Shown here: positions 1,199 through 54,500 of the stretch, one piece after another
Position numbering within the stretch: the first letter of the stretch is position 1
Layout: every line of letters begins with the position of its first letter
DNA from: Plantactinospora mayteni
Lineage (GTDB): Bacteria; Actinomycetota; Actinomycetes; Mycobacteriales; Micromonosporaceae
NCBI RefSeq assembly: GCF_016862935.1
Contig: NZ_BONX01000035.1
Location: forward strand, 62,001-126,000
Direction: 5' to 3'
DNA: 64,000 nucleotides
Program-made: the position numbers and the translations under genes
The notes under the pieces: generated by a model
Database searches by the model: none
What the model was told of the DNA's origin: nothing
The model's input: only the letters and a program-made list of their open reading frames with translations

Positions 1199-3136
1199 GT
1201 GGCACCACCTCAGGGACAGATGCGACCCGGGCGGCAGCTGGCCGTACTCGGGTTGATCTTCACCGTCCTCTACCTTCTGGTGTTCTTCGCCGCCGGGGCC
1301 AAGGGCAGCTGGATGGACCGGCTTGAGCCGAAGCTCGGCCTGGATCTCATCGGCGGCACCCGGATGACCCTGGAGGCGGCCACCGAGGCCGGCCAGGCGC
1401 CCCCTGCCAGCTCCCTGGAGGAGGCCCGGCAGATCATCCAGGCCCGGGTGGACGGCCGCGGCGTCGCCGAGGCGGAGGTGGTCACCGAGGGCAACCGCAA
1501 CATCGTGATCTCCGTGCCGGGCCAGAACGCCGACCTCAACGACGTCGGCACCCCGGCCGAGCTGCGGTTCCGCAAGGTGCTCAAGACCGTCGACGGTGGC
1601 GGCCCGGTCAACGCCGCACCGTCGCCCGGTGCGTCGGCCAGCCCGGCCCCGTCCGGCAGCCCCACTCCCGACGGCAGCGCCGGCCCGTCCGGCAGCCCGT
1701 CTCCGGCCGTGACCTCGTCGCCGGGTGCCGGTGCCGGTGGCGGTCAGGGTGGCGGTGCCCCGGCCCCAACGCCAACGCCAACGCCAACGCCCACGCCGAG
1801 TGGCAGCGCCTCGCCGGCACCGAGCGCCTCGGCCAGCGCCGCCCCGGCGGCTCCGGCCGACCAGACCCTGGCGGAGCAGCGCGCGGCGGTGGAGCAGAAG
1901 GTCGGCGCCGGGGCATGGGCCGCCGCCACCGCGCTCCAGGCACCGGCCGACTACAGCGCGGACCCGGCGCTCGCCGAGAAGCTCAAGCCGTTCGCCGACC
2001 TGACCCCGCAGGAGATCCGGGTCCTGCCGGCGAGTGTGCAGTTCAACGTCCCGACCATCACCTGCGAGAAACTCGACCAGCGGGCGCCCGGCTCGATCAA
2101 GGAGTCGAAGGAGCAGGTGGTCGCCTGCGAGGGTGGCCAGCAGAAGAACCTGCTGGACGTCGCCAAGGTGGAGGGCACCGACGTCGACAACGCCAGCGGG
2201 GTGCTCGACCAGACCACCAGCCAGTGGGTGGTGAGCCTGGACTTCACCGGCGACGGGCAGGGCAAGTGGACCAACCTGACCCGCGAGGCGTTCAACAACA
2301 CCGAGAGCCAGTGCGACCAGGCCGCCCTGGGTGACGAGGGCCGGTGCCGGGTCGCGGTGGTGATGGACAACCAGATCATCTCCGCGCCGGAGATCCAGGG
2401 TGTGCTGACCGGCGACTCCCAGATCACCGGCAGCTTCACCAACGCCTCCGCCAACGAGCTGGCCAGCCAGCTCCGCTACGGCGCCCTGCCGCTGACCTTC
2501 CAGCCGCAGGAGGCGCAGAACATCACCGCCACGCTCGGCACCGAGCACCTGCGGGCCGGCCTGCTGGCCGCCGGCATCGGCATGCTCCTGGTGATCATCT
2601 ACGCCTTCTTCTACTACCGGCTGCTCGGCTCGGTGATCTTCCTCAGCCTGGTCCTCTCCGGCATCCTGGTCTTCGGTGCGCTGGTGGTGCTCGGCCGGCA
2701 GATCGGCTTCACCCTGACCCTGGCCGGGATCGCCGGCTTCATCGTCTCGCTGGGTGTCGCCGCCGACTCCTTCGTCATCTACTTCGAACGTCTGAAAGAC
2801 GAGATCCGGGACGGCCGCAGCCCGCGTAGTGCGGTACCCCGCGCCTGGGCCCGGGCCCGGCGGACGATCATCTCGGCGAACGCCATCTCGATCATGGCCG
2901 CCGTGGTGCTCTACCTCGTCTCGGTCGGCACGGTGCAGGGCTTCGCCTTCGCGCTGGGCATGGCCACCATCCTCGACCTGGTGGTCGTCTTCCTGTTCCG
3001 GCATCCGATCATGACGATGTTCGCGCGTACTCCGGCGTTCCTGTCGCCGCGGGTCAGCGGGCTGGGTCGGGCGCTGCACACCCGGGACGACGACGAGGCG
3101 CCGACGACCGGCAAGACCCGCGTGAAGGAGGCCTGA
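1199..3136 (+). CDS. secD: Protein translocase subunit SecD with long Pro/Ser/Ala-rich insertion
   Basis: SecD is an RND-type membrane protein that uses the proton gradient to complete preprotein translocation, working with SecF. The start chosen is GTG at 1199, behind an AGGGAGA ribosome site; an upstream in-frame start would add an implausible Pro/Arg leader. The product is 645 residues: first membrane helix at about 13-33, the D1 motif GLDLIGGTRM, a large periplasmic domain, and five C-terminal helices with a GVAADSFVIYFERLKDEI motif. Residues about 135-225 form a low-complexity insertion containing a perfect (PT)n run. SecD is often longer in high-GC actinomycetes because of such insertions. 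The tga stop is followed after one base by the secF ATG, so translation is coupled. Confidence 0.96.
   Translation: MAPPQGQMRPGRQLAVLGLIFTVLYLLVFFAAGAKGSWMDRLEPKLGLDLIGGTRMTLEAATEAGQAPPASSLEEARQIIQARVDGRGVAEAEVVTEGNRNIVISVPGQNADLNDVGTPAELRFRKVLKTVDGGGPVNAAPSPGASASPAPSGSPTPDGSAGPSGSPSPAVTSSPGAGAGGGQGGGAPAPTPTPTPTPTPSGSASPAPSASASAAPAAPADQTLAEQRAAVEQKVGAGAWAAATALQAPADYSADPALAEKLKPFADLTPQEIRVLPASVQFNVPTITCEKLDQRAPGSIKESKEQVVACEGGQQKNLLDVAKVEGTDVDNASGVLDQTTSQWVVSLDFTGDGQGKWTNLTREAFNNTESQCDQAALGDEGRCRVAVVMDNQIISAPEIQGVLTGDSQITGSFTNASANELASQLRYGALPLTFQPQEAQNITATLGTEHLRAGLLAAGIGMLLVIIYAFFYYRLLGSVIFLSLVLSGILVFGALVVLGRQIGFTLTLAGIAGFIVSLGVAADSFVIYFERLKDEIRDGRSPRSAVPRAWARARRTIISANAISIMAAVVLYLVSVGTVQGFAFALGMATILDLVVVFLFRHPIMTMFARTPAFLSPRVSGLGRALHTRDDDEAPTTGKTRVKEA
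1766..1795 (+). repeat. 6-bp microsatellite inside secD (Pro-Thr repeat)
   Basis: Five tandem hexamers, four ccaacg and one cccacg, encode Pro-Thr dipeptides at about residues 189-199 of SecD. They lie in the middle of the disordered periplasmic insertion. The unit is a multiple of three, so copy-number change keeps the frame. Confidence 0.9.
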
Positions 3137-3137
3137 G

Positions 3138-5177: not shown

Positions 5178-7934
5178 GTGTCTTCCGATGTCGCCCCTCC
5201 GGCGGAGGGCATGGTGCATCCCACCAACGAGGCTGATACTCCTGCCGACGTCACGACCGGCGCCGGTGGTGCCCAGCCTCCGGCCAACGGGTCCGTCCGG
5301 CCCGGCGGGCTCGCCGAGCCCGCGAAGCCGGCGGCTGCCGCCGAGCAACCCCAGACCGGTTCCGCGCCGGCCGGCGAGCCGCCCCGACCGCTCGGCCCGG
5401 CTCAGTCGGCCGCCGACAGTCAGGCCGCTGGCGTCGCGGTTCCGTCGCCCGGCACCGCGACCGCCCCGCCCCCCGGCGGCCCGGCCGCTCCGGCTGTCGA
5501 TGGCGGCGTTCCGGCCACTCCCGTCGTCGACGGCGGCGTTCTGGCCACTCCCGTCGTCGACGGCGGGGTTCCGGCCGTGCCGGCGGGCATCGGCGCCACC
5601 GTGGGCACCGGAGTGGCCGGCGAGTTCGCCGGGATGGCGGGCGGGGTTCCGCAGCCGCCCCCGACGAGCTTCGCCCTGGCCAACGCACCCACCGGGCGCC
5701 GGGTCCGGGCCCGGCTGGCCCGGTTCAACGCGCCCTGGCAGACCCCGCAGGTGAGCGAGGTGCTGGAGCCACTGATCGCGACACACCGCGCGGCCCACCC
5801 CAAGGCGGACGCGCGGCTGCTGCAACGCGCCTTCGACACGGCCGCCCGGTGGCACTCCGGGCAATACCGCAAGTCCGGCGACCCCTACATCACCCACCCG
5901 CTGGCGGTCGCCACCATCCTGGCCAACCTGGGGATGGACACCACCACCCTGGTCGCCGCGCTGCTGCACGACACGATCGAGGACACCGACTACGGGCTCG
6001 ACCAGATGCGCGCCGACTTCGGCGCCGAGGTCGCGCTGCTGGTCGACGGCGTCACCAAGCTGGACAAGGTCAAGCTGGGCGACGCGGCCAAGGCCGAGAC
6101 GATCCGCAAGATGGTCGTGGCGATGGCCAAGGACCCCCGGGTACTGGTGATCAAGCTGGCCGACCGGCTGCACAACATGCGTACCCTGACCTTCCTGCCG
6201 CCGGCCAAGCGGGAGCAGAAGGCCAAGGAGACGCTGGAGATCCTGGCGCCGCTGGCGCACCGGCTCGGTATGAACACCATCAAGTGGGAGCTGGAGGATC
6301 TGGCCTTCGCCAACCTCTTCCCGAAGCGCTACGAGGAGATCAACCGGCTGATCGGGGAGCACCAGCCGCAGCGTGAGGCGCTGCTCCGGCAGGTGACCCA
6401 GAAGGTGCAGGTCGACCTCCGCGCCGCCAAGATCAAGGCGGAGACCACCGGTCGGCCGAAGCACCTCTACTCGATCTACCAGAAGATGATCGTCCGGGGT
6501 CGGGACTTCAACGACATCTACGACCTGGTCGGGGTACGCATCCTGGTCGACACGGTGCGGGACTGCTACGCGGCCCTCGGTGTGATCCACGCGAACTGGC
6601 AGCCTGTGCCGGGCCGGTTCAAGGACTACATCGCGATGCCGAAGTTCAACATGTACCAATCGCTGCACACCACGGTCATCGGGCCGAGCGGCAAGCCGGT
6701 CGAGATGCAGATCCGGACCTATGCCATGCACCGTACGGCCGAGTTCGGCATCGCGGCGCACTGGAAATACAAGGAGAAGAAGGGCGAGACGGTCGTTGGC
6801 CCGCCGGCCCACATCGACGAGATGACGTGGCTGCGGCAGTTGCTGGACTGGCAGCGCGAGGCGGCCGACCCGAGCGAGTTCCTCGACGCGCTCCGCTTCG
6901 ACCTGTCCAGCCAGGAGGTCTACGTCTTCACCCCCAAGGGGGACGTGATCCCGCTGCCGACCGCCTCGACCCCGGTCGACTTCGCGTACGCGGTGCACAC
7001 CGAGGTCGGGCACAAGTGCATCGGCGCGCGGGTGAACGGCAAGCTGGTGCCGCTGGAGTCGACGCTCTCCAACGGCGACGTGATCGAGATCTTCACCTCG
7101 AAGTCCGACACCGCCGGCCCGACCCAGGACTGGCTGGGCTTCGTCAAGAGCCCCCGGGCGCGGACGAAGATCCGGCAGTACTTCAACAAGGAGCGCCGCG
7201 AGGAGGCGATCGAGGCCGGCAAGGACGCGATCGTCAAGGCGATGCGCAAGCAGGGCATGCCGTTGCAGCGGATGCTGAGCACGGACAACCTGATGACCAT
7301 CGCCCGCGACCTGCACCTGGCCGACGTCGCCTCGCTCTACGCGGCGGTCGGCGACAGCCAGGTCTCCGCCCAGTCCGTGGTGCAGAAGCTGATGGCCGGC
7401 TACGGCGGCGAGGAGGGGGCCGCCGAGGACCTCGCCGAGACCGCCGTCGCCACCCGCCCGCAGCGCCGGGGCAACAGCAACGACCCGGGCGTGGTGGTCC
7501 GGGGCGTCAGCGACGTCTGGATCAAGCTGGCCCGCTGCTGCACGCCGGTGCCGCCGGACACGGTCTTCGGGTTCGTGACCCGCTCCGGCGGGGTGAGCGT
7601 GCACCGGGACGACTGCGCGAACGCCGAGGAACTCAAGGTGCAGACCGAGCGCATCGTGGAGGTGAGCTGGCGGCTCACCTCGGCCTCGACGTTCCTGGTC
7701 GCGATCCAGGTCGAGGCGCTCGACCGGCACAAGCTGCTGGCGGACGTGACCCGGGTGCTCTCCGACGAGCGGGTCAACATCCTCTCCGCGACCGTGACCA
7801 CCACCCGGGACCGGGTGGCGGTCAGCCGGTTCAGCTTCGAGATGGCCGACCCCAAGCACCTGGGGCACCTGCTCGCCGCCGTACGCAAGGTGGATGGCGT
7901 CTTCGACGCCTACCGGGTGACCTCGGGCGCCTGA
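5178..7934 (+). CDS. relA: Bifunctional (p)ppGpp synthetase/hydrolase Rel
   Basis: A long RelA/SpoT-family protein of about 918 residues. In order: a disordered Pro/Ala/Gly-rich N-terminal extension (1-170); an HD hydrolase domain with the LLHDTIEDT motif intact (about 225-330); a synthetase domain with [12 protein letters not shown] (about 425) and the RFKD loop (about 480), the RxKD form typical of bifunctional enzymes; a TGS domain (from about 581); a Cys-containing region ([10 protein letters not shown], about 787); and a C-terminal ACT domain. Both activities should be present. Start choice is uncertain: GTG at 5178 has GAGGAGG only 3 bases upstream, and ATG at 5211 is an alternative. 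The N-terminal extension contains 30-bp tandem repeats. Confidence 0.95.
5491..5580 (+). repeat. 30-bp tandem repeat in the rel N-terminal extension
   Basis: Three 30-bp units (5491, 5521, 5551) encode a ten-residue repeat of the form [10 protein letters not shown]. The second and third differ by only a few bases. They sit in the disordered leader of Rel, outside all catalytic domains. Confidence 0.9.
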
Positions 7935-8882: not shown

Positions 8883-8946
8883 GGTGGCTCCTCCTGGACT
8901 ATGTGCAGCGCGGCCGGGTCCGCGGCTGGGCTGGTCTCTGCGGTTC

Positions 8947-16504: not shown

Positions 16505-17157
16505 GCCGACACCTCGCGTCCGGTCGAACCGCCGCGCCGAGCCGCCGTTCCGGCCTGTGCTGCCGGTGGGCCGCCCTGCGGTGCCGCCGGTCCGGCCTGT
16601 GCTGCCGCCGGTCCGGCCTGCGGTGCCGGCGTGGTGCTGGCGAGCGTGGTGGCGAGCTGGTCGAGGCGGGCGGCGGTCAGCTCCAGCCAGCGCAGGTCGG
16701 CCTCCAGGTGGAAGAGCGCGAAGTCGCAGATGAGCTGGTCGGCGAGGTCGCCGTCGGCCTTGCGCCGGGTCAGGGTACGCATCAGCCGCAGGTGCTCGGC
16801 GCGCTGCACGTCCAGGATGTCGGCGGCGTCGCGGCCGGTGAGCAGCCCGAGCACGACCTTGGCGTAGAGGGTGTTCTGGAGGTAGGCGTCGGGCTTCTCC
16901 GGCTGGGCCAGCCAGCGCCGCACGTCGGTGACCCCGGCCTCGGTGATCGCATAGCGCTTGCGTTCCGGTCCGGCGCCGGGCTCCACCCCGTCGACGGAGA
17001 CCAGACCGCTTTTCAGCAGCCGGGCCAGCGTCGAGTAGACCTGCCCGTAGTGCAGCGGGCGGCCCTGGCCGAACCGTTCGTCGTAGACCCGTTTCAGCTC
17101 GTAGCCGTGCCGTGGGCTGGCCTCCAGGAGGCCCAGGAAAGTCTGTCCGATCGACAT
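16501..17157 (-). CDS. PadR-family transcriptional regulator with repeat tail
   Basis: A 218-residue PadR-like regulator: winged helix at 1-85 (GLLEASPRHGYELKRVYDERF, KRYAITEAG) and a C-terminal dimerising helix (LTRRKADGDLADQLICDF). It probably represses its own ABC operon; members often respond to the drug exported. The last 40 residues are an Ala/Gly/Pro/Gln tail built of seven-residue repeats, absent from typical PadR proteins. First gene of the three-gene unit; ATG at 17157. Confidence 0.9.
   Translation of the reverse strand: MSIGQTFLGLLEASPRHGYELKRVYDERFGQGRPLHYGQVYSTLARLLKSGLVSVDGVEPGAGPERKRYAITEAGVTDVRRWLAQPEKPDAYLQNTLYAKVVLGLLTGRDAADILDVQRAEHLRLMRTLTRRKADGDLADQLICDFALFHLEADLRWLELTAARLDQLATTLASTTPAPQAGPAAAQAGPAAPQGGPPAAQAGTAARRGGSTGREVSA
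16550..16633 (-). repeat. 21-bp tandem repeat in the padR 3' end
   Basis: Four 21-bp units (16550, 16571, 16592, 16613) encode a seven-residue Ala/Gln/Gly/Pro repeat at the C-terminus of the PadR regulator, ahead of its last 15 or so residues. Confidence 0.85.
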
Positions 17158-22491: not shown

Positions 22492-24777
22492 ATGACCGAC
22501 GGGACGGGCCGGCGTACGCCGGAGTGGTTCGCCCGCCGTACCGCCGCCGAACCGGCCTGGACCGGTCAACCGCTCTGGGCCTGGGGTCCACCCGGGCGGC
22601 GACCACGACCGCTGCCGGCGCGACCCGGGCCGTACCAGCCGGTACCGGCCTGGGTGACCGCGCTGCTCGGCTTCACCGACGACCGGACCGGACGGCCCCG
22701 GGCACTGGTGACCAGCTATGCCGGCGCCCGGGTGGTGCTCGACCTGTCCGACGGTGGACTGGTCGGTGCGGTGGACGAGCGGGCCCACGCCCGGGCGTCC
22801 GCGACGACCCGGATCGACGGCGAGCAGTTGGTCGTCTCCGGAGCCGGAGCCGGCTACCTCCAGGTGAGCGACCTCGACAGCGGCCGGTCCCGCTGGCGGC
22901 AGTGGTGCGGCGACGTGCGGTCCCTGGCGACCGTCACCCTGGCCGGCCGCCCGTTCGCGGTGCTGACCGGCGGATCGCCGCACCTGGAGATCTGGTCGCT
23001 CGGCGCCGACCGGGGCGCCCGACTGCACACGTTGCGGACCGGGAGCGAGCGGATTAGCGTGCTGGCCGCGACCGAGGCGGGGGAGGCCGCCGTGCTGGCG
23101 GTCGGCACGAGTACCGGGCGGGTGTCGCTGTGGCGGCTGGAGCCGACGCCGGCCGGCGACGACGTCCGGGTCGAGCCGCTCGGCGAGTACGGCTTCGAGG
23201 TCTCCGGGCTGGTCACCGTGCTGGGGTTCGCGGACTGGCACGGCCGGCCGATCCTGCTCGGCGCCGCCGGCCGGGTGGCCAGGGCCTGGGATCTGCCCGC
23301 CGGGCGACCGCTCGGGCCGGCGTTCGCCGCGCACACCGGCCAGGTCAACTCCGTGCTGGCCGGCCGGCTCGGCGAGCGTACGGTGCTGTGGAGCGGCGAC
23401 GACGCGACCGTACGGGCCTGGCTGCCGGAGACCGGCCGGCAACTGGGCGAGGCGTTCCGTTATCCGTACGAGGCGGCGCCGACCCGGACGATCGGGGTCG
23501 AGATCGGCGGGCGGCCGATGCTGGTCACCGGGGACGGTGCGGGCCTGGTGTGGGTCTGGGACCCGGAGCGGCCGTACCCGTTCCGGCGCGACCTGCCGTC
23601 CGGTGATCAGGACCTGCCATCCAGTGATCGCGACCTGCTGTCCGGTGGTCGCGGCGACCGGGCGCCGGATTCGCTGGGCGTTTCCGGGTATCGCCTCGCG
23701 GTCGCCAGCCCGGCGGGGCAGCCGGTGCTGCTCGCCGCGTTGCCCGGGCACCCGGTACGGGGGTTCGAGCCGGCGACCGGGGCCGAGGTCGAGTTGCCGC
23801 CGCACGGGGTCCCGGACGGGTCGACGCTGGTGCCGGGCGAGCACCCGGTGCTGGCCGGGATCGGGCCGGACCACGTCGAGCTGTGGGACCCGGCCACCGG
23901 GGACCGGATCGGCCCGGTGCCGTTGGGCCGGAACCGGCCGGGCCACCCTGGAACGGCCCTGCCGGACGCGGCCGGCGACTCCGGACCGGTGGGGCCGGTC
24001 GGCGCCGGACTGCTGGGGCCGGTCGGTACCGGACTGCTGGGGCCGGTCGGTACCGGACTGCTGGGGCCGGTCGGTACCGGACTGGTGGACGGCCGCCGGG
24101 TGCTGCTGGTGGCGGACGGAACCGCACTGGTCCGGGTCGACGTCGCGACCGGTCGGCTGGACAGGTCGCCGACCGGGCACTCCGGCCGGATCCGGGGGCT
24201 GGCGCTCGGCGAGCTGGCCGGGGTACCGGTCGGGTTGACCGCCGCCGAGGACGACACCGTACGCCTCTGGCACCTCGACGCCTGGGGGTCGTCCGGGCGG
24301 ACGGTGCTGGACGGGCACGGTGGCGCCGCGTACGCCGTGACGACCGCGACCGTCCACGGGCGTGGCCTGGTGTTCGGGGCCGGCCGGAACGGGCAGGTCC
24401 GCTGCGTCGACGTCACCGACCTGGTCCGGTCGAAGCGGGCCGGTCGGCTCGGCGACGTCGAGCCCGATGCCGGCGGCGAGTCCGACGGCCCGGCCGCCCC
24501 GGTGGCCGACGAACTGCCGCCCGAGCCCGTCGTCGTGCTGACCGCCACCCGGCCGGTACGGTCGTTGGCCGTCGTCCGGGCCGGCCGGACCGACTGGCTG
24601 GTGGCGGCGGACGGGAGCACGCTGCGCTGGCAGCCCGTCGGCGAGCCGGGTACGCCGGGCCAGACGATCGAGGTGGGTGCCCCGGTGACCGACCTCGTGG
24701 CCCTGCCCGGGGTGCTGGTGGTGGCGGCCGGGGACGGACTTCTCGGTTACCGCCCGCCGCCCGACCGGACCGGATAG
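22492..24777 (+). CDS. WD40-like beta-propeller protein
   Basis: A 761-residue protein built of degenerate WD40-type blades. The clearest are AHTGQVNSVLAGRLGERTVL, SGDDATVRAWLPETG, GHSGRIRGLALGELAG and AAEDDTVRLWHLDAW. There is no signal peptide or membrane helix, so it is probably cytoplasmic. Actinomycetes have many such proteins, some linked to kinases or STAND ATPases; no partner domain is present here. Start ATG 22492 (MTDGTGRRTPEWF) is preferred because upstream sequence lacks coding character. Two separate tandem repeats interrupt the blades. Function unknown; likely a protein-binding scaffold. Confidence 0.8.
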   Translation: MTDGTGRRTPEWFARRTAAEPAWTGQPLWAWGPPGRRPRPLPARPGPYQPVPAWVTALLGFTDDRTGRPRALVTSYAGARVVLDLSDGGLVGAVDERAHARASATTRIDGEQLVVSGAGAGYLQVSDLDSGRSRWRQWCGDVRSLATVTLAGRPFAVLTGGSPHLEIWSLGADRGARLHTLRTGSERISVLAATEAGEAAVLAVGTSTGRVSLWRLEPTPAGDDVRVEPLGEYGFEVSGLVTVLGFADWHGRPILLGAAGRVARAWDLPAGRPLGPAFAAHTGQVNSVLAGRLGERTVLWSGDDATVRAWLPETGRQLGEAFRYPYEAAPTRTIGVEIGGRPMLVTGDGAGLVWVWDPERPYPFRRDLPSGDQDLPSSDRDLLSGGRGDRAPDSLGVSGYRLAVASPAGQPVLLAALPGHPVRGFEPATGAEVELPPHGVPDGSTLVPGEHPVLAGIGPDHVELWDPATGDRIGPVPLGRNRPGHPGTALPDAAGDSGPVGPVGAGLLGPVGTGLLGPVGTGLLGPVGTGLVDGRRVLLVADGTALVRVDVATGRLDRSPTGHSGRIRGLALGELAGVPVGLTAAEDDTVRLWHLDAWGSSGRTVLDGHGGAAYAVTTATVHGRGLVFGAGRNGQVRCVDVTDLVRSKRAGRLGDVEPDAGGESDGPAAPVADELPPEPVVVLTATRPVRSLAVVRAGRTDWLVAADGSTLRWQPVGEPGTPGQTIEVGAPVTDLVALPGVLVVAAGDGLLGYRPPPDRTG
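23590..23652 (+). repeat. 21-bp tandem repeat in the propeller gene
   Basis: Three 21-bp units starting gacctgcc encode a seven-residue repeat (DLPSGDQ, DLPSSDR, DLLSGGR) at about residues 367-387, in a loop between blades. Confidence 0.9.
24007..24078 (+). repeat. Perfect 24-bp tandem repeat in the propeller gene
   Basis: Three identical 24-bp units (24007, 24031, 24055) encode GLLGPVGT repeated three times, residues about 506-529. Perfect identity at DNA level, including third positions, indicates recent expansion. Confidence 0.95.
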
Positions 24778-29429: not shown

Positions 29430-30452
29430 CTAGGGCGTGCCGGTGGGCCAGGTGAGGGCCCGGTCGAGCCGGGTCCGAACCGCCCGCGCGTCCGCGCCGA
29501 CCGCACTGACCAGCACGGCCGGGCCGCCCGCCAGCGGCAGTACCGCCGCCGCCACCGCCGACTCCGGCCGTGCCGCTCCGACCGACCAGACCGCTGACTC
29601 TGGCCGTGCCGCTCCAGGCGCCCGGACCGCTGACTCTGGCCGTGGCGCTCCGGCCGACCAGGCCGCTGGCTCTGCCCATGCGGCTCCGGGTGCCCGGACG
29701 GCTGGCTCTGGCCGTGCCGGTCCGGGCCCCCGGACCGCCGGCTGCGGCGGTGCGGCGCTGGACGGCCCGACCGGGGCCGGTGTGCCGGGGCCCGGTGGCA
29801 CCGCCGAGTCGTGGGGGGCCGGCCCGGGCGGCGGAGATCCGGTCCAGGCCGGATCGACCACCAGCATCGAGCCCACAGCCCGGCCCTCGCCGAGCACCGC
29901 CGGGCCGGACCAGCCGGCGGCGCCGGGTCCGACCGCGAGATCGTTGCGGAGCAGGGTACGACCGCCGTACCGCGCGGTCATCTCCAGTCGTACGTCGCCG
30001 ACCGGCTCGGCGTGCCGACCGCAGACCAGTTCCTCACGCCAGCACAGTGCTGCCCCCTCGGCAAGCTCGACGACGCAGGTGGTCCGGTGTGCACAGCCGG
30101 CCGCCCCGATCAGCGGCTCGGGCAGCCAACGCAGCCGTGCACCGGCCGCCACCCGGGCCCGTACGACGAGTCGGGACTCGGCACCGTCCCGCGCCGGCAG
30201 CGCCAGCGACGCGGCGACACTCCGTACGCAGAGCCGCGCTCCCGGTCCGATCTCGATCTCGATCCGCAACCGATCCCCGCCGAGCGGGCCGGCCGCCCCG
30301 CCGACGAGGTGCAGTTGGACCTCGCGATCCGGACCCGCCGGGCCGACCGGTCCGGTCCGGCGGAGCAGTAGCGGCGGTTCGCCGCGCAGTACGGTCAGCC
30401 GGGTTCCCCGCAGCGGGTCGGCCTCGGCGACGATCCGGGCCAGCGCCCGCAT
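29430..30452 (-). CDS. ureD: Urease accessory protein UreD (UreH) with C-terminal repeat insertion
   Basis: UreD is the scaffold that docks UreF-UreG onto apo-urease. The N-terminal 230 residues match the family (RLRIEIEIGPGARLCVRSVAASLALP, ARLRWLPEPLIGAAGC, RYGGRTLLRNDLAVGPG). Between about 215 and 300 lies a Pro/Ala-rich insertion of twelve-residue repeats, after which the normal C-terminus resumes (VLPLAGGPAVLVSAVGADARAV). At 340 residues it is longer than typical actinobacterial UreD. The start ATG at 30452 overlaps the ureG stop by one base (TGATG). Last gene of ureABCFGD. Confidence 0.9.
   Translation of the reverse strand: MRALARIVAEADPLRGTRLTVLRGEPPLLLRRTGPVGPAGPDREVQLHLVGGAAGPLGGDRLRIEIEIGPGARLCVRSVAASLALPARDGAESRLVVRARVAAGARLRWLPEPLIGAAGCAHRTTCVVELAEGAALCWREELVCGRHAEPVGDVRLEMTARYGGRTLLRNDLAVGPGAAGWSGPAVLGEGRAVGSMLVVDPAWTGSPPPGPAPHDSAVPPGPGTPAPVGPSSAAPPQPAVRGPGPARPEPAVRAPGAAWAEPAAWSAGAPRPESAVRAPGAARPESAVWSVGAARPESAVAAAVLPLAGGPAVLVSAVGADARAVRTRLDRALTWPTGTP
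29556..29750 (-). repeat. 36-bp tandem repeat in ureD
   Basis: Copies recur exactly every 36 bases (marker positions 29560, 29596, 29632, 29668, 29704, 29740). They encode SAVWSVGAARPE, SAVRAPGAARPE, PAAWSAGAPRPE and PAVRAPGAAWAE, about five and a half units. Confidence 0.93.
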
Positions 30453-31396
30453 CAGCCCGAGTGCCCTGGGTGGTCGTCCACCGACCCGGGCAGGGCGGAC
30501 AACTGCGATGGTGCGGGCGCCGGCAGCAGTGTCCGGACCCAGCCGGCGACGGCCGTCGCGGCCGGGTCCTCCACCAGGGAGAGGAAGACCGTGGGCAGCC
30601 TGCCCCGCCGGGCAGCCGCGTCCCGGGCCATCACCGACAGGTCGGCGCCGACCAGCGGGGCCAGGTCGGTCTTGTTCACCACCAGCAGGTCCGCGCCGGT
30701 TACCCCGGGGCCACCCTTGCGGGGCACCTTGTCCCCGCCGGCCACGTCGACCACGAAGATCTGCCGGTCCACCAGTCCGCGGCTGAAGGTGGCGGTGAGG
30801 TTGTCCCCGCCGCTCTCCACGAGGATCAGGTCCAGCGGCCCGAGCAGGACTTCCAGTTCCTCCACCGCGTCCAGGTTGGCCGAGATGTCGTCCCGGATCG
30901 CGGTGTGCGGGCAGCAGCCGGTCTCCACCGCCCGGATCCGCTCGGCCGGCAGTACGCCATTGCGGAGCAGGAAGTCGGCATCCTCGGTGGTGTAGATGTC
31001 GTTGGTGACCACGGCGAGCCGCAGCTCGTCGGCGAAGGCCCGGCACAGCGCGGCGACCAGGGCGGTCTTGCCCGAGCCGACCGGGCCGCCGATGCCGACC
31101 CGGACCGCTCCGGAGCCGCCCGACCGGTCCACCGGCGGATGAGGGTCGATCTCCGGGTCCGGGTGCCGGTGCGGCACCTCGCCATCGGCGTTGTGCTGCG
31201 GCACCTCGCCAGCGGCGTGCCGGTGCGGCGCCTGGCGGTCGGCGTGTTCGTGCGGCATCCCGCCGTCGGCGTGCTGGCGCGGTGTCCCGCCGTCGGCGTG
31301 CTGGTGTGGCATCCCGCCGTCGGGCTGCTGCTGCGGTGTCCCGCCGTCGGGGTGTCGGTGGATGCCGGTCCCGTGGTCGGGTCGGTCAGGACGCAA
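30452..31396 (-). CDS. ureG: Urease accessory GTPase UreG with His-rich repeat N-terminus
   Basis: UreG is the SIMIBI GTPase that delivers nickel to urease. The core is complete: P-loop [14 protein letters not shown] (about 101-114), [14 protein letters not shown], the CPH nickel motif [25 protein letters not shown] and NKTDLAP. Before it lie about 90 residues with 14 histidines, mostly in nine-residue repeats such as ADGGMPHEH, which replace the usual very short leader. The likely start is TTG at 31396: GGGAGG lies nine bases upstream inside ureF, and no ATG or GTG precedes the repeats. It overlaps the end of ureF by 11 bases. No ureE gene is present. Confidence 0.9.
31163..31351 (-). repeat. 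27-bp tandem repeat encoding the UreG His-rich segment
   Basis: Seven contiguous 27-bp units (31163, 31190, 31217, 31244, 31271, 31298, 31325). Each encodes nine residues of the form ADGGxPHxH. There are no spacers between units, so it is not a CRISPR array. Confidence 0.95.
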
Positions 31397-32426
31397 AGAG
31401 ACGCACCTCCCAGCTCGCGTGAACCTCGGCGCCGATCTCCAGCAGCGGGGTGGAGTCGGCGGGCAGCCGGTCGACCGGATCGTCCGCCCCGGCGACGGCC
31501 AGCGCGGCCAGCCGGTCGCACACCCCGGCCAACTCGGCGAGCAGGGCGTGCACGGCGTACGGGTCCAGGCCGAGCAGCCGTACGGCGGCACTGGCCGGCC
31601 CACTGATCGTCCCGTACGCCCCGGCGACCGCCGCCTCGGCCGGGGAGAGTCCGGCGGCGGCGGCCACCACGCCGAGGGCCACCGGATGGTGCGGATTCCG
31701 GATCGCCGGGTCGACCCGCCACATCGCCCGGCCGGCCCGGAGCAGCGCCCGACCCTGTGCCCGGGAGGCCCGACGCAGCGCCGGGGACGGCGTCCGGGCG
31801 TCCATCCCCTGGTCAAGCGCGTCGATCCTCGACCTGGCTCCGCCGTCACTGGGAACCCCGCCAGACAACCCGGCTCCGCCATCCGCCCTGTCGCCGGCAA
31901 CCCCGCCGGGAGAGCCGGCTCTACCGTCCGCGTCGTAGCCGGAAGCTCCGCCGTCTGCCCTGTCGCCGGCAGTCCCGGCGGGAGAGTCGGCTCCACTGTC
32001 CGCGTCGTAGCCGGAAGCTCCGCCGTCTGCCCTGTCGCCGGCAGTCCCGCCGGGAGAGTCGGCTCCACTGTCCGCGTCGTAGCCGGAAGCTCCGCCGTCC
32101 GCCCTGTCGCCGGAAGCCCCATCGGCCGACGCGTCGCCCGGAGTCCCGCCGGAGGATCCGGCTCCGCCGTGCGCCGGTTTGCGGACGGTGTCGTCGACCG
32201 GTCGGGCGGCGGCGCAGGCGGCTGCGGCGAAGGCTGCGGCCACCCGGCCGGTGCCGGCGAGCCGGCCGTGCAGGAACGCGGCCAACCCGGCCAGGTCCCG
32301 GAGCCGACCGCTGGTCACCGCCGCCTCCAGCCCACCCGAGTGGGCGTGGCCGCCGGCGGGCAGCCGGCCGTCGGCGAGTACCAGCAGGGTGGCGAGTCCG
32401 GTCACGGCGGCGGCAGGCTCGGGCAC
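31386..32426 (-). CDS. ureF: Urease accessory protein UreF with large repeat insertion
   Basis: UreF bridges UreD and UreG and acts as GTPase-activating checkpoint. The N-terminus ([23 protein letters not shown]) and the C-terminal half ([31 protein letters not shown]) are typical UreF. Residues about 75-205 are an acidic, Gly/Asp/Ser-rich insertion made largely of a 24-residue repeat, giving 346 residues where actinobacterial UreF usually has about 220. The insertion falls in the central helical region. Start GTG 32426, seven bases after the ureC stop, has a poor ribosome site and probably depends on coupling. Confidence 0.9.
31881..32113 (-). repeat. 72-bp tandem repeat in ureF
   Basis: Units begin at 31926, 31998 and 32070, with a partial copy before the first. 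The two full copies are nearly identical over 72 bases. They encode [20 protein letters not shown] plus four more residues per unit, about residues 104-182 of UreF. Confidence 0.95.
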
Positions 32427-34945: not shown

Positions 34946-35103
34946 GACCACCGCGTGCCGGGGCCGACCCGCCGGACCCCGCCGGTCGGCTCGATCGGGC
35001 CCGGCGGACGCCCGGACGGGGAGCGCCGGACAGGCCGATCGGGGAGCGCCGGGACGGCCGGACGGGGCTCCGGCTTCTTGACGAAATCCTGACGCTTCTG
35101 AGT

Positions 35104-39269: not shown

Positions 39270-39295
39270 TTACTCAGTAACTACTTATCGAGTAA
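39270..39295. promoter_or_regulatory. PadR-type operator upstream of the second padR gene
   Basis: TTACTC (39270-39275) and GAGTAA (39290-39295) form an inverted repeat, with further direct AGTAA words between them. It ends nine bases before the padR start codon, so it overlaps the promoter or leader and suits autorepression. Confidence 0.6.
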
Positions 39296-39304
39296 GTTGG
39301 CCGC

Positions 39305-40647: not shown

Positions 40648-40748
40648 GCGAGCGATGCGAGCGAATCAGCCAGTTCAGCGCGTATGTGCCTCGTGGCGGC
40701 GCCGAGCGAAGTGGAGTGCCGGCATGAGCGGGCGTAGCGAGCGAATCA
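40642..40748 (+). repeat. Two copies of a 27-base repeat between ATPase and permease
   Basis: gcatgagcg-agcgatgcga-gcgaatca occurs at 40642-40668 and, with four differences, at 40722-40748. Each copy spans an ATG in GCATGAGCG context. From memory, very similar short elements are scattered at gene starts across Micromonosporaceae genomes; this needs a genome search. Confidence 0.65.
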
Positions 40749-40821
40749 TCAGGCTCAGCAGGCGGTCCGGGTGCCGGGGGCGACGGGGTCCGGTCGACGG
40801 TCTGGCCGGCGAGGTGTCGGC

Positions 40822-43350: not shown

Positions 43351-43573
43351 CCACCGGCCGAGGGCACCAGGCGCTCCAGCGTCGCGTCCCGGGTGGCGGC
43401 GGGGCGGGGACGACCGCCGACCGGTCGGGGCGGCGCGGAACGGGGGCGGCCGGTGGCAGTACCGGCCGGTCCGCGGGACCCGACGGGTGGGGCGCCGGGC
43501 GGTCCGGGCCGTCCTGACAGAATGTCGGGGCAGCAGCCCGGACCGCCCGGACAGACGTGAGGAGACACCTGTC

Positions 43574-45442: not shown

Positions 45443-45532
45443 AGCCAACGGCCTCGGTCGGTGCGCCACGGCGATCCGGGGTGACCGGGGGTGGGCGGCA
45501 ATCGACTTGCTTCGGATGCTCATACTCGGTCC

Positions 45533-47149
45533 ATGGCGCCCAACCCTGATCTGATGATCGACTTAGACCCGAGCGAGGTGGGATCCGAGGTCGTCAAGAC
45601 CGTCGTCCTGCCTTGGTCGGGCCAGAGCATCCCCCTGAGAATCCCGGCCGGGCTCGGCGACGGCACCGTGCTGCGGCTGCCCGGCATCGGCCCGGCGACC
45701 GTGCCCGGCGGCCCGCCCCGGGACGCGTACGTCCAGATCCGGATCGTGCCGGGCGGAGGCGGTACGGTCCCCGCGAGCTTCGGAGCGGCTCCCTTCGGAG
45801 CGCCCGGGCCGGTCCCGCCGGTGACGTCGGCCCCGCCGACCACCCCGTTCGGTGCTCCGCCGCCGGTCTCGGCCCCGCCGACCGCGCCGTACGGGACGCC
45901 GCCGGTCTCCGCGCCGCCGACCAGCCCGTTCGGTGCTCCGCCGCCGGTCTCGGCCCCGCCGACCACGCCGTTCGGCGCGGGCCCGCCGGTCTCGGGTGCG
46001 CCGGCCGCTCCCTTCGGCACCCCGCCGGTCTCGGCCCCGCCGACCACGCCGTTCGGTGCTCCGCCCCCGGTGTCGGGTCCGCCGACGGCGCCGTTCGGGG
46101 CCGGCCCGCCCGGCCCGCCGTACGGTGGGTCGCCGCAGTTCGGTGCGTTTCCGCCGCAACCGCCCGCCAAGTCGGGGCGCGGCAAGATAATCGCCATCGT
46201 CGGTGGTGCCGTCGCCGTGGTCCTGCTGGTCGCGCTGGCGGTCCCGCTGCTGATCTGGGCCGGTAACCGGGGCTCCGACGGCTCGCCCTCGAACAGGACC
46301 TCCGGCCAGGGCGGGGAGCCGTCGCCGAGCGCCGCGCCGATCACCGCCCAGGAATACCAGGCGCTGCTGGCCGAGGTCGACAAGGCGGTGACGCCGGGCT
46401 TCACCCAGCTCGGTGCGGCCAAGAACCCCAAGGCGGTCGGTACCGCCGCCGGCACCATCGGGCGGGCACTCGACCAGCAGATCACCGCGCTCTCCGACGT
46501 CGTCCCGCCGCAGAACGCCGCGGCGGCACACGCCGACCTGCTGCGCGGGCTGGAGGGCATGGTCGACTCGATCACCGAGACCGGCTCGGCCGCCGGGGCC
46601 GGCGAGGTCTGCCTCGGCTCGTCGGCGCTGGCCAGGCTCAGCCGGGACCCGGCCGCCGAGGACGTACGCACCGCGCAGCAGGCGCTGGCGGCGGCGGACC
46701 CGGCGCAGCCGTACCAGGTCGGCCAGTTCGTACCGAAGAAGACGGCGGACGGCAACCGGCGGCTCGGCAACGGCGTGTACATCAAGCGGGTGCGCAGCGG
46801 TCAGGGGCAGCTCAAGATCGAGAATGGCGGCAGCAGCGACGCCGTCATCAACCTGGTGCTGGGCAACTCCAAGACCCCGACGGTCAGCGTCTACGTCCGG
46901 GCCAAGGGCAAGCACACCGTCTCCTCGATCAAGGACGGCACCTACCGGATCTACATGACCGGCGGCAAGGACTGGGACGCCCGGGCGAAGGCGTTCAGCC
47001 GGAACTGTAACTTCCAGCGGTTCGAGGACACCTTCAAGTTCACCACCACCTCCAGCCAGTACACGATCTGGACGATCACGCTGACTCCGGTCGCGGGTGG
47101 AAACGCGCAGACCAGCGAGGTCGACCCGAACGCGTTCCCGGGCGGCTGA
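45533..47149 (+). CDS. Single-pass membrane protein with DnaJ-C-like N-terminus and Pro-rich repeats
   Basis: A 538-residue protein of unknown function. Residues 1-80 resemble one DnaJ C-terminal substrate-binding repeat (VVLPWSGQSIPLRIPAGLGD, VLRLPGIGP, AYVQIRIVPGG), without J domain or zinc finger. Residues 96-193 are seven proline-rich repeats (VSAPPTTPFGAPPP). A membrane helix follows (IIAIVGGAVAVVLLVALAVP, about 219-242), then a soluble outer domain of about 290 residues. ATG 45533 chosen on coding onset. The topology suggests a cytoplasmic chaperone-like module on an envelope protein. Confidence 0.75.
   Translation: MAPNPDLMIDLDPSEVGSEVVKTVVLPWSGQSIPLRIPAGLGDGTVLRLPGIGPATVPGGPPRDAYVQIRIVPGGGGTVPASFGAAPFGAPGPVPPVTSAPPTTPFGAPPPVSAPPTAPYGTPPVSAPPTSPFGAPPPVSAPPTTPFGAGPPVSGAPAAPFGTPPVSAPPTTPFGAPPPVSGPPTAPFGAGPPGPPYGGSPQFGAFPPQPPAKSGRGKIIAIVGGAVAVVLLVALAVPLLIWAGNRGSDGSPSNRTSGQGGEPSPSAAPITAQEYQALLAEVDKAVTPGFTQLGAAKNPKAVGTAAGTIGRALDQQITALSDVVPPQNAAAAHADLLRGLEGMVDSITETGSAAGAGEVCLGSSALARLSRDPAAEDVRTAQQALAAADPAQPYQVGQFVPKKTADGNRRLGNGVYIKRVRSGQGQLKIENGGSSDAVINLVLGNSKTPTVSVYVRAKGKHTVSSIKDGTYRIYMTGGKDWDARAKAFSRNCNFQRFEDTFKFTTTSSQYTIWTITLTPVAGGNAQTSEVDPNAFPGG
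45821..46111 (+). repeat. 39-45 bp tandem repeat in the Pro-rich membrane protein
   Basis: Seven in-frame units of 13, 14 or 15 codons, each starting gtc/gtg and encoding VSAPPT-PFG-PPP variants. Alternation of 39 and 42 bp shows one-codon indels that always preserve frame. Confidence 0.9.
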
Positions 47150-49366: not shown

Positions 49367-49594
49367 CCGACCGCCACCGAGGTCCGGGCGACCGAGCCGG
49401 TGCAGCCGAGCGGGTCGGTGAAGCCGGGCGAGCCGGTGCAGCCGAGCGGCGCGTGGAGCCGGCCGGCTGCCGACGCCCCGCCCTCTGGACACCGTCCGTG
49501 GCGGTCGGGGCACTCACCGGCGCCGGTGGATTGGCCCGGGGCGCTGTCGGGTACATCCTGGCCGACCTACTGGGACCCCCGCCGGGAGGAACAC

Positions 49595-49877: not shown

Positions 49878-51521
49878 ATGGAGTCCGACGGCCTATTCTC
49901 TCTCGTCGATCCCGTCGCCGGGCGTACCGCGCCGGCCGGGACCGCCGCCGACGGGTTCACCGTACCCTCCGCCGACTCGCCGCTGCCGGTCCGGATGCGT
50001 CCAGCCAGCCTGGACGAGCTGGTCGGGCAGGACCATCTGCTCGCACCCGGGGCGCCGCTGCGACAGCTCGTGACGGGTACGTCACCGATGTCGGTGATCC
50101 TGTGGGGGCCGCCGGGCAGCGGCAAGACCACCATCGCGCACCTGGTGGCGCACGCCACCGAGCGACGCTTCGTGGCGATGTCGGCGCTCTCCGCCGGTGT
50201 CAAGGACGTCCGTGCGGTGATCGACACCGCCCGTCGGGAGCGGCGGGCCGGCGGGCGTCCGACCGTGCTCTTCATCGACGAGGTGCACCGGTTCAGCAAG
50301 ACCCAGCAGGACTCCCTGCTGGCCGCGGTCGAGGACCGTACTGTCACCCTGCTGGCGGCCACCACGGAGAACCCGTACTTCTCGGTCATCTCGCCGCTGC
50401 TGTCCCGGTGCGTACTGCTCACCCTGCAACCGCTGGACGACGACGCGGTACGCGGACTGCTCCGCCGCGCCGTCACCGACCAGCGTGGACTGGCCGGCGC
50501 GCTCACCCTCGCCCCGGACGCCGAGGAGCACCTGGTCCGGCTCGCCGGTGGGGACGTACGCAAGGCGCTGACCGCGCTGGAGGCGGCGGCCGGCTCGGCC
50601 ACGGCGCTGGACGAGACGGTGATCAACCTGGCCACCGCCGAGCAGGCCGTCGACGTGGCGGCGGTGCGTTACGACCGTGACGGCGACGCCCACTACGACG
50701 TGGTGAGCGCGTTCATCAAGAGTCTGCGCGGCTCCGATGTGGACGCCGCACTGCACTGGCTGGCCCGGATGCTGGTGGCCGGCGAGGACGCCCGGTTCAT
50801 CGCCCGGCGGATCGTGATCTTCGCGAGTGAGGACGTCGGGATGGCCGACCCCAGCGCGCTGAGTGTGGCCACCGCCGCGGCGCACGCCGTCGAGTACGTC
50901 GGTCTGCCCGAGGCGCAGCTCAACCTCGCCCATGCCGTGATCCACATGGCCACCGCACCGAAGTCCAACTCGGCGACCATGGCGATCGGCGCGGCGATCG
51001 GCGACGTACGGGCCGGTCGGGGCGGTTCGGTGCCCCGGGCGCTGCGCGACGCGCACTATTCCGGGGCACGCGGGTTGGGGCACGGCACCGGGTACCGCTA
51101 TCCGCACGACGACCACCGGGGGGTGGTCACCCAGCAGTACGCCCCGGACGACCTCGTCGGGGTGGACTACTACCAGCCGAGCGGACACGGCGCCGAGCGC
51201 GCCGTCGGCACCCGGCTGCCACTGCTGCGCCGGATCGTCCGGGGGCAGCCCACACCGCCGCCGGAACGCGCCGCGACCGGCATAGCGCCAGCAGACACCG
51301 TGTACGGCAGAGCGCCAGCAGGCGCCGCGAACGGCAGAGCGCCAGAAGACGTCCCGACTGGCAGAGCGCCAGAAGGTGCCGTGCACGGCAACACGCCAGC
51401 AGACACCGTGCACGGCAACACGCCAGAAGGTGCCGTGCATGGCAACGCGCCGGAGGATGCCGTGCGGGGCACGGTGACAGCAGATGGCGGCGGTACACCC
51501 GAGGGGGAGGAAGTCCAGTGA
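49878..51521 (+). CDS. rarA: Replication-associated recombination protein RarA with repeat tail
   Basis: RarA/MgsA is a clamp-loader-like AAA+ ATPase acting at stalled forks. Core 1-465: [15 protein letters not shown], Walker [10 protein letters not shown], Walker [11 protein letters not shown], sensor [11 protein letters not shown], and the tetramerisation domain ([29 protein letters not shown]). The last 80 residues are an unusual tail of nine-residue repeats ([18 protein letters not shown]), missing from E. coli RarA. ATG 49878 marks coding onset. The stop overlaps the next gene start. Confidence 0.94.
51282..51470 (+). repeat. 27-bp tandem repeat in the rarA tail
   Basis: Seven contiguous 27-bp units (51282, 51309, 51336, 51363, 51390, 51417, 51444), coding for RarA residues about 469-531. 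Same period as the ureG repeat but different sequence. No spacers, so not CRISPR. Confidence 0.95.
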
Positions 51522-54500
51522 GGCGCGGTTCGGACCGGGGCGAGGACGGCCACGACGAGCGGCGGGAACCACGGGGCAAGGGACGCCGCTGGGGCCGGGG
51601 CAAGGCGGAGGAGCCTCCGCCCGCAGCGCCGGAGGTCAGCGGCGAGGAGCTCGGCTGGATCACCGACCTGCGTACCGCCAAGGAGCAGAAGGTCGACATC
51701 GGCCCGGCCGACGGCACCACGCCGGCCGACCCGCCGGCCCGGGTCCCCGCCGCCTATGAGCGGCTGCCGGAGGCCGGCCCGGACGACACCGGTTCGATGT
51801 CGTCTCCCGGGTCGCCGTCGGCGGATCCCATGGCCGGGCCCGGTCGGCGTCGGGGCGACGAGCCGGAGCCGGGACCAGCGGTACCGCCCCGGCGCGCACC
51901 GGAGTCCCCGGACCCGGCGCAGCCCGTCCGAGGCGGCGCCGGTCCCCAGCCACCGCGGGCCGATCCACGGTCCCCAGCCGTACCGCCGACGCCGCCGTCC
52001 GTGGTCCCGCCGGTCGTGCCGGCGCCACCGCTCGGGCGGCCGGGTCGGGCGGCCGAGCCGGTCCACCCGACGGCCTGGGCCGGGCCGCCGCCGGAGCGCC
52101 GCCCGGGACCGCCGGCGGGTGACCGGGGCGAGCCGGCGATGCGGCCCGGTGCCACACCGTGGCCGGGTGAGCCGGTACCGCCGGCCGGGCACCAGCCAAG
52201 GCACGGCGGCGCGCCGGTCGAACCCGGTCCGGGGCGGCGGGCGGCGGGCGTCCGGGGCGAGGAGCCGTCCCCGGGACGCCGGGCGGCCCCGCCCACCGAA
52301 CCGGGCGACGGTCGACACGGCCGCCCGGCCGGCCCCACCTCCGGTGACTTCCCCGGCCCGGGTGGCCCGGCCGGGCGGTTCGGGCCACCCGCCGCACCCG
52401 ACGGCGGTGAATTCGTCGTACCGGCCTCCGGCAACGCCCCGTCCGTTCCGACCGCTCCGGCCGCACCTGGCCGTCCGGGCGCTCCCGAGCGCGACCCGGG
52501 CGGGCCGGGACGCGGCGGTCCGGTCCTGGGCGCGCGTCGCCCCGGTGCCGCCCCGCCGCCCTCCGGCGCACACGCCGCCGGCGCGGGTACGCACTCCGCC
52601 GCTGGCGGCTACTCCCCGGGAGCCGGTACGCACGCCTCCGGCGGGGCACACTCCGCAGACGGGGGCGCGCACGGCGCCGCTGGCGGTACGCACGCTGCCG
52701 CTGGGGCGTACTCGGTCGGTGGCGGTGCACATGCCGCGGTCAGTGGTCCGACCGGCGCGGGGGCGCATTCCGGCCCGGGTGGCGCACACGTGGCTGGCGA
52801 GCGGGAGAACCGCCCGTCCGGCCATCCGGAGCGGCCGGCGGACTGGATCCGCAAGGCTGGCCGGGGAGGCGTCCGGCCGGTCACCCCGGCCGCCGGATAC
52901 GGGCCACCGGCTCCGGGCCCCGGAGTCGACGCGCCCGGATTTCCGCCGGTCCCGGCTGGTCCGACCGGCCCGGACCCGAGCAGCCGCCCACCCGGCGGAC
53001 CGGGCCCGGTGAGCGGACCGGGTTCGGTATCCGGGCCGGGTTCACTGGGCGGGCCGGGCTCGCTGGGCGGGCCGGGTTCGGTGTCCGGGCCAGGTTCGGT
53101 GTCCGGGCCGGGTTCGGTGTCCGAGCCGGGCAGGGCGGGTAACCGGTCGGCGGGTAACCGGCCACCGTCCGGGCCGGACGGCTTCGACGGCGGGCATCCG
53201 GGCCCGGGTCGGCACGGGGCGCCGCCGACCGAGGACTCCCGGGACGACGGACGGGGTTCCCGGGGCCGCCCCGGCGCGGGTCCGTCCGGTCCGCCGTTCG
53301 GGCCCGACGGTGCCGGCGGCGGGCGGCACGGCGGGTTGCCGCCGGTCGTACCAGGGCGGCACGGCGCGGTCGCACCACCGGCCGGCGCCGGGCCGCGTGG
53401 TGACCATCCGACCACCGGAGGTCCGTCCGGAGCCGGCGCTCCGCCGGTCTCGGGTGCCCCCCGCAGCGCACCGCCGCGCGGCGGTACCCCCCGTCCGGTC
53501 GAACCGGGTGGTGAGCCGGGGTCGCCCCGGGCCGCCGCCGGGCTCGGCCGGCCTCCCGTCGAAGCGGCGGAGCGGCGCGCGGCGCCCGGCGGCAGGTACG
53601 CCGTCGAGCCGGCCGACCGGGTCGGCCCGCCGGTATCGGGACCCGGCCGGGGCGAGGGCCCCGCCGGCCGCCCGGCTGCAGGTCGCGCCGGTACGCCCGT
53701 CGACGGCGGTGCGGCTGCTCGACCGGGTGGTGCCGCCTTCGACGGTGGCGTACCGGGGCGACCCGGTGCAGCCCCGGTGTCCGGTGGCCCGGCTCGGGCG
53801 TCGGCCCGGGGGCCGGCCGCACCGGTGCACCCCGGTTCCGCCCCGCCGGCCGGCCCGACCCGGGACCCGGGCGCCGGTGGACCCGCCCGCCCCATACCGG
53901 CCGACGGCCGGGCGGCCACCACCCGTCCCGCCCCGGGACGGCTGGACGGGCCACCCCGGGACGAAGCGACCCGACCCGACCCGCCGGTCCGGCCCGACGC
54001 CCCGACCCACCCGCCGGTACGCCCGGACGGCGCCGCCCGCCCCGACGGCCCGCCCCGGCCCGACGCGGCGATGCGCTCCGCCGCCATCCCGCCGGCCGGC
54101 GGCCTCGGCTCCGACGGCGGTCCCGTCCGGTCCGATCCGGCGGAACCCCCGGCGGAACCCGCCCGGGGTGCCCGGGCCGAGTTGCGGCATCAGCTCCGCG
54201 AGCAGCGTCGACTGAAGACGATCGCCCTGCTGCTGGCCAGCCTGCTGGTGCTCGGCGCGCTGCCGACGTACTTCGGGGTCCGGGCCGCGACCCGGGATCC
54301 GGTGTTCAACTCGCTCGACGCGCTGGCGGTGCCGGCCTGGGCCGCCACCGACACGGTCGACGGGGTGAGCGGCAGCCGGTGGTGCTTCATCGAGTGCCGT
54401 TTCCGGGAGCGGACCGTCGAGTCGGACCGGAAGTGGGAGGAGACGGCGCAGGCCTACGAGACCGCCCTGGCCCGCGAGGGGTGGCAGCCGTGGAAGGTGG

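Follow-up and report, generated by a model that had tools for sequence, protein, structure and literature searches.

In-frame tandem repeats in prokaryotic genes have several described counterparts and, as far as the available portions of the reports go, four of them come close to the case considered here. The Borg elements of archaea carry many independent and fast-evolving arrays, with units that are multiples of three within open reading frames (ORFs), that encode disordered protein regions and that include a hotspot locus with repeats in homologues (PMC9879509). The tolA gene of E. coli bears an in-frame minisatellite that varies in copy number within a housekeeping gene (PMC3477136), a survey of prokaryotic satellites describes long-unit arrays as mostly multiples of three and in many instances genic (PMC6749651), and a model of protein-repeat evolution has the copies diverging under strongly relaxed selection (PMC5120217). 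Similar traits are displayed by the tandem arrays found in a 64-kb stretch of Plantactinospora mayteni (contig NZ_BONX01000035.1, positions 62,001 to 126,000; hereafter the window), many of which lie inside genes such as those of the urease accessory proteins UreD, UreF and UreG. The window is typical of the Micromonosporaceae genome it comes from, which is rich in guanine plus cytosine (GC) and has tandem duplications, with units of about 12-140 bp, throughout the sampled DNA. We argue that these arrays are probably the outcome of GC-linked tandem duplication filtered by reading frame and protein fold, with repeats that are mostly tolerated and without a tuned mutator lineage behind them.

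The likeness to the described systems is nevertheless partial. Borg repeats within ORFs are reported, in the text available, as perfect, A-enriched and extrachromosomal (PMC9879509), whereas those analyzed here are GC-rich, 77-94% identical between adjacent copies and located on a bacterial contig with housekeeping genes; set against Borg repeats, they are also about six times denser in non-coding than in coding DNA. The accessible part of the tolA report describes variation within a species and with a phenotype (PMC3477136), whereas here variation is seen between species and often involves replacement of the unit, and the protein-repeat model, as available, has orthologous repeats conserved between species at later stages (PMC5120217), whereas among the congeners compared here most have been lost, changed in length or replaced. 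The portion of the satellite survey at hand gives 4.20 arrays per Mb for S. coelicolor and 2.25 for A. mediterranei (PMC6749651). A script imitating its rule returns 27.5 per Mb in this genome (11 arrays in 400 kb), as compared to 6.8 for a set of 32 urease loci from Streptomycetaceae, a contrast that is rough because another program was used and because a genome of another family (G078) reaches 37.5 per Mb (3 in 80 kb). The arrays of the window, with contiguous copies above chance and units that are multiples of three, fit the class of in-frame intragenic minisatellites, resembling bacterial variable-number tandem repeats; phase-variable contingency loci, which turn genes on and off by frame-shifting, do not match genic units that are nearly all multiples of three. 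Among the matches listed by literature searches that left most subscription papers uncovered, we found no report of such a pattern in the Micromonosporaceae.

At the main threshold of this study (a Tandem Repeats Finder, TRF, score of at least 80), the window holds 15 non-overlapping arrays, as compared to a mean of 0.05 (maximum 1) in 20 order-3 Markov shuffles. The difference persists at scores of at least 100 (10 against 0) and at least 150 (7 against 0). Inside genes called by script there are 9 arrays, against 0.15 when codons are shuffled within genes or in 100-codon blocks and 0 when they are shuffled in 40-codon blocks. The underlying GC-frame gene caller overlooked ureD and the disordered-protein gene at 51518-54823, and one of its 9 arrays, 49396-49449, sits at the margin of an ORF of uncertain status. 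Counting the two overlooked genes and leaving out 49396, 12 of the 15 arrays reside in nine genes (Table 1), and secD is a tenth, with a weak hexamer run; shorter Pro-Thr runs occupy its site in G002, G004 and G006, the three congeners placed. Pfam assignments were made for secD, rel, padR, the WD40-like protein, ureG, rarA, ureF and ureD. A preliminary description of this DNA had named arrays in these coding genes, all of which TRF recovers at the stated positions or a few bases away. Units are multiples of three in 11 of the 12 genic arrays of score at least 80, the exception being the irregular repeat at 53970-54057.

The host assembly is a 9.84-Mb draft in 123 contigs with a GC content of 72%, and the arrays extend well beyond the window. 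Twenty stretches of 20 kb (400 kb in total), of which 18 are on 15 other contigs and two elsewhere on the same contig, contain 62 arrays of score at least 80, or 15.5 per 100 kb, which extrapolates to about 1,500 arrays genome-wide. The window itself, at 23.4 per 100 kb, has 15 arrays where 9.9 are expected (P=0.08), and hence its interpretation as a local hotspot is unsupported. Three congeneric genomes, sampled by 140, 140 and 120 kb, yield 8.6 (G003), 20.0 (G004) and 18.3 arrays per 100 kb. Since the first two are single-contig genomes, an assembly artefact is unlikely, even though copy numbers in a 123-contig draft may be collapsed.

The reading-frame filter becomes apparent when coding and non-coding DNA are compared. 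Across the four congeneric genomes (800 kb), the period is divisible by three in 61 of 64 coding arrays and in 26 of 60 non-coding ones, the latter not departing clearly from one third (P=0.10). In this genome, density is 51.7 per 100 kb in non-coding and 8.6 in coding DNA, and the in-frame class alone accounts for 21.8 per 100 kb of non-coding DNA. A second filter is visible in the location of coding arrays. Coding DNA beside hydrophobic-poor sequence, evaluated on non-array residues at four cut-offs, bears 35-102 arrays per 100 kb as opposed to 1.9-4.0 elsewhere, and between 39 and 53 of the 64 coding arrays of the genus sample, depending on the cut-off, have a hydrophobic-poor flank, a compositional measure used in place of a disorder predictor. 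Together with the predicted structure of UreF (see below), these flanks suggest that the repeats tend to encode disordered regions, as Borg repeats do. The density of hydrophobic-poor coding DNA surpasses the 21.8 per 100 kb of the non-coding in-frame class, but does not prove positive selection, given that GC content is higher there (75.5-77.3%, against 69.9% in non-coding DNA) and that array density climbs steeply with GC from genome to genome. Because duplications occur in both the coding and the non-coding DNA of one genome, birth and selection can be separated, and these genomes thus constitute a natural experiment in which the effects of frame, fold and drift can each be seen.

The dependence on GC extends to other actinomycetes. 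Over 24 genomes (4 of the genus, 15 of the family and 5 of other families, most of them sampled by 80 kb only), array density correlates with GC content (Spearman rho 0.69, P 0.0002), and a simple Poisson fit assigns the GC term a likelihood ratio (LR) of 57.9. Outside the genus, 7 of 20 genomes lie at 11-14 arrays per 100 kb, and one with a GC content of 74.9% reaches 30. The preliminary description had proposed a slippage-prone lineage and asked whether coding repeats are denser here than in other genera. The genus does stand above its GC expectation, yet some other genomes of high GC are equally dense or denser, and the proposed singularity of the lineage is not borne out by a density that tracks GC. 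The genic products of duplication look mostly neutral, and the process itself is real but linked to GC and common to several families of actinomycetes. The genome with 74.9% GC, that of G092 (L226-L229) from another family, owes its figure to 24 arrays in 80 kb, roughly double the density found here.

Urease loci provide a further view, restricted to the best 80 listed from one scan of genome contigs, among which near relatives are possibly missing; taxon groups were taken from record titles and 12 of the 80 loci fall in no group. Density per 100 kb is 16.1 in Actinoplanes-like loci (4), 6.9 in Streptomycetaceae (32), 4.1 in Mycobacteriaceae and Nocardia (6), 3.1 in both Micromonospora (3) and Pseudonocardiales (7), 1.8 in Proteobacteria (14) and 0 in Streptosporangiales (2). 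The nearest named loci among those listed belong to Jidongwangia, Micromonospora, Actinoplanes and Symbioplanes, which we take to be Micromonosporaceae.

The arrays turn over rapidly among close species. Seven genomes of the genus were compared (G000-G006, G000 being that of the window), one per species, so that every comparison is between species. The 15 arrays of the window could be placed in G002, G003, G004 and G006 in 57 of 60 possible combinations, and array length is unchanged in only 3 of these, as compared to 725 of 996 array-free control spans. Lengths thus differ in 54 of 57 placements, and the fast evolution anticipated in the preliminary description is upheld: old, stable features are not seen at the species level. 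The orthologous place lacks an array of score at least 50 in 31 placements and has one in 26, far above random spans (81 of 1375) and stable spans (47 of 2050), and above indel-prone spans that vary in another species (119 of 665), with control spans that overlap. Among these 26 co-located arrays, unit similarity does not exceed the 99th percentile of mismatched pairs (0.23) in 11, is detectable in 13 and surpasses 0.6 in 2. The place is hence common more often than the repeat itself, which parallels the independent births at common hotspots reported for Borgs, the other 15 having some unit similarity.

Length differences mostly obey the reading frame as well. Within the genus, 42 of 48 differences at eleven gene sites are multiples of three; the six exceptions (two in rel, one in padR, one in the 24-bp propeller array and two in ureF) stem in part from anchor errors, the ureF frames being open. 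For the three arrays of the disordered-protein gene the figure is 8 of 10, and for the uncertain ORF at 49396 it is 3 of 5. The observation thus reaches beyond the earlier claim, in that the arrays are genome-wide and turn over between close species. In practical terms, the loops of UreF, UreD, Rel and RarA in such genomes are unalignable across species, and repeat numbers taken from draft assemblies need care.

The best explanation for these patterns is probably the one advanced at the outset. Duplications would arise by template slippage or by unequal recombination involving short matches of high GC, and their rate of birth would increase with local GC. Selection would then chiefly remove duplications that shift the frame or break the fold and, because it purges these, insertion-tolerant loops would be hit repeatedly. 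At most sites the resulting repeats would be tolerated rather than tuned, with UreG as a potential exception. If GC does set the birth rate, extreme GC would directly affect protein disorder, an effect amenable to testing.

Several observations weigh against this account. The mechanism of duplication is deduced from array patterns, and the split into coding and non-coding DNA depends on a simple gene caller. GC is not the whole story, because the genus lies 1.57-fold above its GC expectation (LR 10.8, in a model that leaves overdispersion and phylogeny outside). Moreover, genomes of equal GC differ several-fold, as illustrated by G106 (73.1%) and G042 (72.1%), with 3.7 and 5.0 arrays per 100 kb, and the Micromonospora and Pseudonocardiales loci remain at their low density despite a GC content of 72.4%. 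Co-location exceeds that of indel-prone controls (46% against 18%), although those control spans overlap one another, and the 15 of 26 co-located arrays with some unit similarity may reflect shared ancestry for part of the repeats. Finally, copies of the ureD array diverge by 20-25%, yet the array is lacking in five congeners; divergence from G004 at fourfold sites is 11.9%, and the ureD figure is compatible only with the faster clock of the disordered-protein gene (22.7% at third positions, also against G004).

Part of this evidence could be read as the work of a dedicated system, in which very GC-rich actinomycetes, with this genus above its GC expectation, would run a chromosomal, Borg-like repeat generator, a specific replication or recombination process that rewrites the same housekeeping-enzyme loops with new peptide repeats, selection having built some of its products into functional parts, such as a nickel-binding UreG tail that replaces UreE. 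We regard this scenario as unlikely.

UreF, present in six of the seven genus genomes, is the clearest case of turnover among the arrays. Its loop carries 24-residue units (3.4 copies) here, 12-residue units in G002, 6-residue units in G006 and a short Asp-Ala run in G001, and has no insert in G003 and G004. Among the other Actinobacteria with a listed loop, some further loci being unplaced, most have no insert or a short one (nearly all Streptomyces among them), and inserts of their own occur in Actinoplanes (L024), Microtetraspora (L043) and Actinomycetospora (L080).

The UreF profile hits solved structures of this protein (best E 3.7e-10), and an AlphaFold2 model built from 41 sequences has a confident helical fold with a mean predicted local distance difference test (pLDDT) score of 72.7 and 163 of 346 residues at 90 or above. 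Almost all residues from 84 to 185, between helices 45-74 and 195-210, score below 50, and the array encodes residues 103-185. According to this model, the array is a loop inside one domain and no interdomain linker. The notion that all arrays lie in linkers or tails must be amended for ureF and also, judging from the conserved C-terminal flank of its array, for ureD, both arrays being inside conserved protein. The ureD array has no place on a solved fold because the match to solved structures covers only residues 41-149 of the 343 given.

The N-terminal tail of UreG, ahead of the GGPVGSGKT P-loop, has 102 residues and 14 histidines (His) in this genome, 98 and 15 in G002, 84 and 10 in G004, 73 and 12 in G006, 59 and 7 in G003, and 58 and 7 in G001. 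In 37 other UreG tails the number of His does not exceed 8, with a median of 4; the last Met served as a guess for the tail start, and a first set of eleven relatives included two that yielded no tail. The units resemble an HEHG-DEVPHTH motif of sister genera, which we take to be ancestral. No UreE match was detected in this genome, G001, G002, G005 or G006, and there is one match each in G003 and G004, distant from this urease cluster; His content and UreE presence show no clean split. Units of different sequence all retain His, as would be the case if the tail bound nickel in a genome without detected UreE, and this putatively nickel-binding tail is the best candidate for a real function among the arrays. 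In G003 (C1:5642909-5644122) and G004 (C1:2059714-2060951) a second, distant UreF-like match stands beside the UreE match, which suggests that these two genomes have an additional urease cluster, equipped with a separate UreE.

A related proposal, also voiced in the preliminary description, is that copy number tunes the proteins, operating as a selected switch or rheostat of the contingency type. Recurrence of arrays at the same protein positions beyond indel tolerance would agree with it, as would the His-rich UreG tails of the six genus species with the gene, and the tolA report, in the portion available, sets a precedent in which copy number alters stress tolerance (PMC3477136). In nine arrays (those at 45826, 52554 and 53970 have units of variable length and were excluded), adjacent copies differ by 6-23%, and these differences are spread evenly over codon positions 1, 2 and 3 (58/337, 53/336 and 58/334). 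Seven housekeeping ORFs compared with G002 exhibit 144, 91 and 462 differences at the same positions, and the share of position 3 is markedly different between both sets (P 6e-14). Since differences are equal at all codon positions, the arrays drift without visible peptide-level constraint. Arrays at the same site, moreover, often encode unrelated peptides (e.g. UreF in G002 and G006), and the same process takes place in non-coding DNA. Hence, adaptive tuning of copy number seems rather improbable as a general explanation. The same measurements temper the earlier statement that several copies are identical even at third positions: only the ureF and 24-bp propeller arrays exceed 90% identity between adjacent copies, and these two, at 7% and 6% divergence, are young as judged by their copies.

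It is very doubtful that the lineage became slippage-prone by losing mismatch repair. This genome lacks a MutS_V match, and NucS is reported, in the text available, to be unable to correct indels (PMC8228993). Absence of MutS_V, though, is near-general in the class sample (76 of 78 genomes; 11 of 14 controls gave a match), and NucS_C occurs in 59 of the family's 61 genomes, among them the present one, while array density varies between 0 and 30 per 100 kb. Being nearly uniform across these samples, neither gene marks a lineage, and a mutator origin by repair loss is rejected for NucS and MutS, the two genes that the comparison covers. The accessible text on tolA has mismatch repair targeting mainly bulges of 1-4 bp, and describes changes in the 15-mer repeat as RecA-dependent with no significant effect of mutS (PMC3477136).

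There is little to commend the view that the arrays are old, stable repeats belonging to their protein families, which we deem most improbable. It would suit the Pro-rich protein, with related units in all five congeners placed, and the UreG motif of sister genera. By contrast, the ureD, ureF, rel, propeller and intergenic arrays are lacking in some or all of the congeners placed: the rel array has no counterpart in G003 and G004, the ureD site is only 4-46 bp long in five congeners, and the place of 58629-58697 is without an array in four. Chance can be dismissed: the idea that TRF picks up low-complexity segments produced by high GC and codon bias likely accounts for many of the weakest of its 86 rows at score at least 40 (shuffles yield 4.8 arrays per window at score at least 50) but is refuted by the shuffles for arrays of score at least 80, and as a general explanation its probability is negligible.

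Table 1. Tandem arrays of the window and the disordered-protein gene (positions in the window)
Gene or region	Position	Strand	Description
secD	1766..1797	+	CCAACG x5.3, (Pro-Thr)n between P1 domain and P1 head; score 57
rel	5474..5576	+	30-bp unit x3.4, N-terminal extension ahead of HD domain
padR	16541..16632	-	21/42-bp unit, C-terminal tail
WD40-like propeller protein	23587..23653	+	21-bp unit x3.2 between blade regions
WD40-like propeller protein	23981..24088	+	24-bp unit x4.5; adjacent-copy divergence 6%
ureD	29554..29756	-	36/72-bp array ahead of conserved C-terminal stretch; Pfam UreD
ureG	31163..31354	-	27-bp unit x7.1, His-rich N-terminal tail
ureF	31873..32120	-	72-bp unit x3.4, loop between two helices of UreF fold, predicted unstructured
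No called gene	35006..35067		Period 23, not a multiple of three
Pro-rich protein (45491-47149)	45826..46110	+	39-45-bp units (SAPPTTPFGAPPPV), called by TRF as 42/81/123
rarA	51274..51465	+	27-bp units, C-terminal tail behind MgsA_C
Disordered-protein gene	51518..54823	+	Coding: third-position substitution excess against G002, G004 and G006
Disordered protein (51518-54823)	52554..52654	+	39-bp unit x2.6
Disordered protein (51518-54823)	52996..53130	+	18/54-bp units x7.6 (GPGSVS)
Disordered protein (51518-54823)	53970..54057	+	Irregular RPD/PP repeat, TRF period 31
No called gene	58629..58697		Period 29, not a multiple of three

The gene at 51518-54823, which adjoins rarA and could be aligned in G002, G004 and G006, encodes a protein of 1,101 residues that is rich in Pro, Gly and Ala, has no Pfam match and includes a hydrophobic segment followed by a C-terminal part. 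The array-bearing padR gene is part of a region (13476-17157) that also encodes an FtsX permease of 882 residues. A PadR regulator, an ATP-binding cassette (ABC) ATPase and another FtsX-type permease (859 residues) are encoded at 39305-43350, within a stretch of about 4.2 kb (39255-43477) that G001-G004 lack at the corresponding position and of which G006 has the greater part. On the minus strand at 8055-9891, two adjacent genes for cyclophilin-type peptidyl-prolyl isomerases are probably tandem paralogues.

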